A stretch of DNA of 60,430 bases from a virus. Positions 141-1,329 of the stretch are shown here, in pieces. Location of the stretch: positions 1 through 60,430 of the IMG/VR virus record IMGVR_UViG_3300009151_000080. One strand, given 5' to 3'. Position 1 is the first letter of the stretch, and every line of letters begins with the position of its first letter. A program made the translations under genes and the position numbers. The notes beneath the pieces are model-generated. The model had not been told where the DNA came from. It worked only from the letters and a program-made list of their open reading frames with translations, and ran no database searches.

Positions 141-908
141 TTATTTTTTATTGAAAATTTCTGAAAATATTTCATAGTTACTACCAACCGAGTTATGATC
201 GTTGATAATAGCAAATACTATATTATCATAAAGTGAATCATAACCTTCGTCAATCAATACTTGTTTAAAGAAATTAGCCATTTTAGTTGGATCGTTTTTA
301 AAAACTCCACATCCCCATGCTCCCAATACTATGTTTTTAACATCATGTTTAGCTGGTATGGTCAGCATCAATCTTATCTTATTAAGAGTTGTTTCTTCAT
401 AGGAAGAAACTTTATTCTGATCTTTATAGAAATGATGTTCCGAATTCAGATTAATAGCAGCAATAGTCATTACATCACAATCTATTGGATCCATGTAGTT
501 ATAATCCTTATCCTTAAAGAATACAGCACCTTGCGTATAAAGACAAGAGTCATCTTCTAATGGGTAGAAATCGGTTGATATAGAGTGACTTAGATTAGAA
601 CACCTAAATAAACATTCTTCTTGAGCTTTTGCTCCACGTTCAACTCCACCACCTGGTCTTTTATATGAAGCCATATTTAGGATACAAGAGTATCCTTTAT
701 CGGTTTCAAATAGCTTTTCCAAGGCGGAAACGGTGTCAGAGTTTTCTACAGTTATGTTACTGTTCTCTTTTATGTATGATAGATAAGAACCTTTTACTTC
801 ACTAAATGTATGTTTGGTTGTTTCTCCAGACCTTATTTTATAAGACTTATTAAAAGTATCAGTAAATACGTCTATTAGATCTTGGTTGGGTATTTTATGA
901 TTTATCAT
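141..908 (-). CDS. PARG-like ADP-ribose glycohydrolase (TIGR02452/DUF2263 type)
   Basis: A 255-residue protein of the microbial poly(ADP-ribose) glycohydrolase family. The diagnostic GGG-X(6-8)-QEE signature is present as GGG at residues 86-88 and QEE at 96-98, with seven residues between, so the catalytic glutamates are kept. Later blocks (VMTIAAINLN, then NIVLGAWGCGVFKNDP) match the macrodomain-like core. The family removes ADP-ribose from modified targets. In a phage it could reverse host ADP-ribosylation defence or tidy ADP-ribose products; that role is inference. The gene is single, with a TATATTTG box five bases before its ATG, implying host sigma-dependent, nearly leaderless expression. 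It lies downstream of the tmRNA terminator on the same strand. Confidence 0.85.
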   Translation of the reverse strand: MINHKIPNQDLIDVFTDTFNKSYKIRSGETTKHTFSEVKGSYLSYIKENSNITVENSDTVSALEKLFETDKGYSCILNMASYKRPGGGVERGAKAQEECLFRCSNLSHSISTDFYPLEDDSCLYTQGAVFFKDKDYNYMDPIDCDVMTIAAINLNSEHHFYKDQNKVSSYEETTLNKIRLMLTIPAKHDVKNIVLGAWGCGVFKNDPTKMANFFKQVLIDEGYDSLYDNIVFAIINDHNSVGSNYEIFSEIFNKK

Positions 909-975: not shown

Positions 976-1329
976 TTGTGGAGGTGTCCGGGTACGATCC
1001 GGAGTTTTCCTAGTCATCTATAAACATTCGTTCACAAGCTTAGTAAATTTTTCTTAACTCACAAAATATATGATTTTATTTTACAATTCTAAATCATCAA
1101 AATATATTGAAACTTTTACAGAGTTCTTACTGTTGGAAACTAATTAAGCTAATGCTACGGTGTTTACCTTTACCATGTTGTTGCGTAGTGTCGCTACTAA
1201 ATCTTCACGAGAACCTACTTCGTTTGTGTTGCCGTTTAAAGCGTTAATGTAATTTATTAATCGGTTGAACATCATCCGATGCTTGAATCATACTTACCTA
1301 TGTCCTAAGAGGCAAATCAGTTCACCCCC
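976..1329 (-). ncRNA. ssrA: Transfer-messenger RNA (tmRNA) with an extended tag
   Basis: The minus strand begins GGGGGTG and ends CACCTCC, a 7-bp acceptor stem with a G-U at the third pair as in E. coli tmRNA. A T-arm-like hairpin (CCGG-ATCGTAC-CCGG) precedes the 3' strand; the discriminator A is followed by CAA, so the CCA tail is not encoded. About 97 nt from the 5' end lies AAACGGCAACACAAACGAAG, close to the resume region of Bacteroidota tmRNA (GGC resume codon, tag beginning G-x-T-N). The frame from GGC runs 29 codons to TAA, starting GNTNEV and ending NTVALA, instead of the usual short tag ending ALAA. An AT-rich pseudoknot-sized segment follows. The gene is 350 nt long and followed by a terminator. 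Pseudoknots were not folded. Confidence 0.85.

Follow-up and report, generated by a model that had tools for sequence, protein, structure and literature searches.

We analysed a 60,430-base virus record that carries myovirus genes (terminase, portal, major head protein, tail sheath, and clamp loader), referred to here as the window, and found that it almost certainly contains a real tmRNA gene with an unusually long tag. The unusual length is shared across a family and is no quirk of this record: related tmRNAs with long tag frames occur in about 95 viral records, and large relatives encode, judged by sequence, SmpB, a ClpC-like unfoldase, and ClpP. On these grounds we give roughly even weight to the view that the phages practise functional trans-translation in which the long tag is a degron, most likely read by phage ClpC-ClpP in those relatives that have them.

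The mature RNA of the window is read from the minus strand, with G1 at 1329 and the discriminator A73 at 979 (Table 1). The RNA runs GGGGGUG...CACCUCCA; its CCA 3' end is not encoded by the gene. The two acceptor strands form a seven-pair stem that retains G3.U70, the alanine-identity pair, and that covaries in the family, which agrees with an earlier sequence-only reading of this DNA that called the acceptor canonical. The T-loop, AUCGUAC, departs from the canonical UUCRANN, and the second PK1 stem is weak in the window RNA itself, whereas it covaries elsewhere in the family. The TAnnTTTG-type element upstream of the gene is of what we take to be the Bacteroidota promoter type; the arrangement TTG-N18-21-TAnnTTTG lies upstream in 26 of 51 distinct family members, compared with 0.4% of shuffles. 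Two terminator-type sites were found in the scanned stretch (0.1 expected).

Table 1. Coordinates of the tmRNA gene, its parts, and its flanking signals in the window.
Feature	Positions	Strand	Support
Phage tmRNA gene, one-piece, 351 nt	979–1329	−	Covariance model, 102.5 bits; relatives called by ARAGORN/RF00023
Acceptor stem, 5' strand, GGGGGUG	1323–1329	−	Covarying family stem; G3.U70 retained
Acceptor stem, 3' strand, CACCUCC (U70 at 982)	980–986	−	Pairing and covariation
T-arm, UCCGG-AUCGUAC-CCGGA	987–1003	−	Window sequence; family T-stem covaries, 5 of 6 pairs
PK1 first stem, AUCGG (1280–1276) with CCGAU (1264–1260)	1260–1280	−	100% of family cells paired
Tag frame GNTNEVGSREDLVATLRNNMVKVNTVALA, 29 codons (1233–1147) and stop UAA (1146–1144)	1144–1233	−	Open frame; ~95 records
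Promoter −7 element TATCTTTG, TAnnTTTG type	1341–1348	−	Family promoter count
Promoter −33 element TTTG, 19 nt from the −7 element	1368–1371	−	Family promoter count
Intrinsic terminator-like hairpin just 3' of the tmRNA end	948–974	−	12-pair stem, then T run

Standard tools are silent on the window: ARAGORN called no tmRNA, and Rfam RF00023 gave no match at its gathering score or in a permissive scan. Sub-threshold Rfam matches around the tmRNA were weak, mostly low-complexity hairpins at the terminator, and were set aside. Taken literally, this silence is the outcome that the sequence-only reading named as refuting it, but homologs overturn it. A covariance model built from the first 150 positions of 15 relatives, with the window left out, matched the window at 1329–1181 with 102.5 bits (E 6.5e-21), the next match in the window having an E-value of 0.36. 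At two near-relative loci (L021 and L189, the latter in a 227-kb phage) ARAGORN calls a tmRNA with a 29-residue tag, GNTNEVGSVEDLVFALRNNILKANRLAVA, and RF00023 scores 63.6–65.3 bits. These two pass the RF00023 gathering score, as do L086, L097, and L188. ARAGORN called a tmRNA at 5 of 34 family loci scanned and at none of 17 further loci. Both programs miss most members because of a GGCAGUA-like T-loop and a 6-bp T-stem, and the RF00023 miss on the window is a detection limit of one model rather than a biological feature. Since most tmRNAs of this huge-phage group escape both programs, surveys of phage tmRNAs undercount. Whole-RNA minimum-free-energy folding of the window tmRNA did not stand out from shuffles (z −0.68); an RNA that is AT-rich and pseudoknotted would be expected to behave so, and we relied on comparative evidence instead.

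The first relatives came from DNA similarity, which gave two unannotated megaphage records matching the tag region, and further ones from pattern scans of viral contigs; an exact T-arm pattern had no match in viral contigs. Across 84,980 bacterial and archaeal species genomes the PK1/resume pattern, which is strict and would miss divergent copies, was absent apart from two chance matches inside genes. The terminase of the window is 63–66% identical to those of nine long-tag records of 154–642 kb, among them LR756502 (642 kb) and LR745206 (635 kb).

We aligned 39 of the RNAs over the acceptor, T-stem, P2 base, and both PK1 stems. Of the cells in these helices, 95.5% were paired, against 86.1% in shuffles and at most 46.4% in slid controls; 14 of 28 pairs were changed on both sides, and the cells so changed numbered 108, where shuffles gave 34 and slid controls no more than 44. 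Three rows (L017, L098, and L127) are 1–2 nt short at the 5' end, so that acceptor-stem counts are slightly low. G3.U70 is kept across the family while its neighbours in the stem (pairs 5, 6, and others) show compensatory changes, the two A-U rows at this position being rows shortened at the 5' end; in outlying members pair 2 becomes U-A (L065) and pair 7 becomes A-U (L104 and L108). The first PK1 stem is paired throughout, and the second is paired in 83.7% of cells with both-side changes at four of its five pairs. Most members have a six-pair T-stem with the loop GGCAGUA or similar in place of UUCRANN, and L021, L086, L097, L108, and L188 have the canonical T-loop. This covariation, the match to the window-free model, and the near relative called by both ARAGORN and RF00023 bear out the sequence-only proposal of a phage tmRNA.

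The tag frame in the window specifies 29 residues, the length claimed in that earlier reading, and the L021/L189 tag is homologous and equally long, ARAGORN placing its resume codon at the same site. Both the position of the frame and the peptide are conserved. Among 47 distinct tags the length is 29 residues in 31, 27 in 12, 28 in two, 25 in one, and 19 in one; 45 of the 47 thus fall at 27–29 residues, and the 19-residue tag represents one lineage. A tmRNA with a canonical elbow in a 507,910-base phage (L188, positions 59800–60500; RF00023 83.6 bits) has a tag of 34 residues, GNVITNEVGSLSDILSVLAKSKTTATQVEELEIA, when its start is called by homology at the family resume codon; ARAGORN starts this tag 18 codons later, at an internal codon. 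Three further loci (L086, L104, and L108) belong to a different long-tag family, VVSEKIDVLDALDSTESVQDGELVLAV, DNETIGVLDFFNSTEVNEGELLQVV, and VETEKVNVLDALISTEVKEEALLLAV, similar in length and unlike in sequence.

Several measures indicate that the frame is maintained as a peptide. In 24 distinct 28-codon frames there were no in-frame stops in the tag frame, against 54–131 in the others, and tag indels across the family are whole codons that leave the frame open. The pN/pS ratio was 0.63 over the whole tag (17 of 300 column shuffles were as low) and 0.51 over codons 1–19; the whole-tag signal is modest because RNA structure also constrains this region. No other protein in eight carriers ended in the tag peptide.

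The window tag ends VALA, so the ALA, not LAA, terminus noted earlier is correct. Only the window has the VALA ending; among relatives the tags finish in ATV, ELV, ELA, AVA, VVA, and others. The final three positions show more than twenty combinations, the last residue always being A or V, while E10, D11, V13, and L16 are invariant in 45 tags and define an internal motif, EDLVxxL. VALA is thus one of many endings, and the conserved information in the tag is internal. This distribution bears on a rival account in which the tmRNA is functional, host ClpXP or other proteases read the hydrophobic A/V end, and the extra 18–20 residues are a linker or serve RNA folding. The A or V terminus of all 47 distinct tags fits that account, and the predicted hairpins in the tag coding region mean that length could follow RNA structure. 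However, an invariant interior with a variable last three residues is the reverse of what a terminal degron predicts, and related phage tmRNAs have short ALAA tags, so the RNA does not need the length. We judge host-protease reading unlikely.

Genes found elsewhere in the relatives hint at a phage-encoded reader. Intact SmpB ORFs scoring over curated cut-offs are present in LR756502, LR745206, and the 476-, 385-, 270-, and 227-kb long-tag carriers, and a 436-kb record is a seventh long-tag carrier with SmpB. A ClpC-like protein of 700–720 residues with a double AAA+ architecture occurs in seven long-tag records; in the two or three of these in which domain details were read, it lacks the N-terminal domain, its alignment to ClpC starting at residue 145, and a UVR middle motif is present. 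ClpP was found in ten long-tag records searched, and the LR756502 protein exceeds the NCBIfam equivalog cut-off. When only records of roughly 350 kb and upwards are considered, SmpB and ClpC occur together in five of five long-tag phages, most of which also have ClpP, and in none of four similarly large phages with related tmRNAs (446, 349, 452, and 448 kb), which do carry ClpP-like genes. Three of these four have ANDN...ALAA tags, and the tag of the fourth lies outside the sequence examined. A Fisher test on the five versus four records gave p 0.008, which is indicative only, as it takes no account of relatedness, two of the short-tag records are nearly identical, and the tag of one record cannot be seen; the contrast follows clades, so these are not independent events.

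The window's own 60-kb fragment contains no SmpB, ClpP, or ClpC gene, so that their presence in its phage is judged from kin; SmpB is present in relatives whose terminase is 64–66% identical to that of the window phage. Some smaller long-tag records, which may be fragments, had no SmpB or ClpC match. The SmpB and Clp genes are not clustered with the tmRNA gene. In the long-tag megaphages L136–L139, SmpB shares a conserved neighbourhood with a thioredoxin-like gene, which also adjoins SmpB in L141. The 446-, 349-, and 452-kb phages (G016, G017, and G018) have ClpP-like genes in tandem, and in each pair one copy contains an in-frame TGA. Alanyl-tRNA synthetase was absent from the carriers searched, except for a partial match in LR745206; no complete phage enzyme having been found, charging would fall to the host.

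Taken together, the route that we favour would begin with the host alanyl-tRNA synthetase charging the RNA through G3.U70. The charged RNA would enter stalled ribosomes with SmpB, which the larger relatives encode, and the template would switch to GGC at 1233; Ala and the 29-residue tag would be appended, and release would occur at UAA. The long tag, combining an internal, putatively helical motif (EDLVxxL) with a short hydrophobic C-terminus, would then act as a degron for a Clp-type protease, most likely the phage ClpC-like unfoldase with ClpP in the relatives having them, rather than being read only by host ClpX through a terminal LAA. We infer charging and tagging from the family and from known tmRNA biology, and the choice of protease is the most inferential step of all.

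The sequence-only reading suggested that the RNA might rescue ribosomes while sparing, delaying, or redirecting the product. Rescue without fast degradation, in which products are spared or sent elsewhere and phage translation continues, has about the same low probability in our estimate as reading by host proteases. Tag endings other than LAA would fit it, and a degron ending in ADAS for ALAA is degraded less well by Escherichia coli ClpXP (PMC8512704), but the Clp protease genes of the carriers, a tag sequence that is maintained instead of drifting, and the constant A or V at its end speak against it. Sparing or delay found no direct support; redirection is circumstantially favoured by the phage SmpB, the ClpC-like protein, the frequent ClpP, and the conserved internal motif.

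It is improbable that the RNA is a decoy whose main effect is to occupy SmpB and so block trans-translation by the host. A precedent is described in PMC4131195, the TLD-only tmRNA of mycobacteriophage DS6A, for which such a role has been proposed, and the T-loop is changed in many members of the present family; yet the family retains the pseudoknot, an open long tag frame, and the mRNA domain in full, and SmpB is supplied by the phages rather than depleted. A decaying host ssrA remnant with a tag frame extended by chance, which the silence of ARAGORN and RF00023 on the window might suggest, is refuted by the covariation, the frame and tag conserved in about 95 records, the promoter, and the terminator.

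A broader form of the degron reading, which we put forward tentatively and consider less likely than the degron function itself, is that a huge-phage lineage has a partly orthogonal line of trans-translation and proteolysis, made up of a tmRNA with a changed elbow and a tag of 25–34 residues, a phage SmpB, and a ClpC that lacks the N-domain and, with ClpP, reads EDLVxxL, so that stalled products in infected cells are marked for the phage protease and not that of the host.

The phage family resembles bacterial one-piece tmRNA (RF00023) in its G3.U70 acceptor, T-arm, long P2, PK1 before the resume codon, and tag frame with a stop. It differs in a tag of 25–34 residues instead of about ten and, in most members, in a GGCAGUA-like T-loop on a 6-bp T-stem. 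Usual tmRNA tags have ~8–15 residues and end in ALAA or similar, and textbooks treat them as degrons; Mycoplasma is the known exception to this rule, with an extended tag and another protease. The Mycoplasma tag lacks ALAA and is read by Lon (Gur and Sauer, 2008; Ge and Karzai, 2009, as summarised in PMC3985003). It is the precedent for the reading favoured here: like the phage tag it is long and lacks a terminal ALAA, and it goes with a change of protease, as the phage tag may do; the phage case differs in that the genes are phage genes, the tag sequence is unrelated, and ClpC/ClpP is, from the genes, the candidate reader.

Phage tmRNAs are known from mycobacteriophages and Bacillus phage G (PMC4131195), from 402 phages by ARAGORN and Melnitz (PMC9004378), and, using ARAGORN, from huge phages that also have SmpB (PMC7162821). 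These reports share with the present family a tmRNA in lytic phages and, in huge phages, a tmRNA with SmpB; their accessible text does not describe a conserved long tag. No description of a conserved long-tag phage tmRNA family was found in the text of the open papers searched, though earlier notice elsewhere is possible, and the literature yielded no Bacteroidota host tag. We suggest that long tags sharing a conserved internal motif arose in this phage family alongside its genes for SmpB and Clp proteins, which makes a joint phage takeover of ribosome rescue and protein disposal a testable question.

Short-tag phage tmRNAs (L158, L162, L163, L174, L180, and L185) share the GGCAGUA/GGCGGUA T-loop and are recognised by RF00023, but their tags have about 9–13 residues, several ending ALAA, and the large records examined have no SmpB or ClpC-like gene. 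Since these RNAs pass RF00023 with the same loop, genuine tmRNAs can carry this variant whatever the length of their tag; it may alter D-loop/T-loop or SmpB contacts. The loop was seen in these six and in L149, L153, L157, L161, L177, and L184; visible tags in this set are short (for example ANDNATAPYALAA and GNYNTQVAYA), ARAGORN misses all of the set, and RF00023 accepts most of those scanned.

Beside the tmRNA gene, the window encodes a microbial-type poly(ADP-ribose) glycohydrolase (141–908, minus strand; PF10021, E 2.9e-22); relatives occur in 14 viral contigs, and the enzyme may be a counter-defence against ADP-ribosylation. L184, L185, and L001 have tRNAs with a CUA anticodon (amber suppressors, labelled tRNA-Pyl by ARAGORN), a hint that some of these phages may recode TAG.
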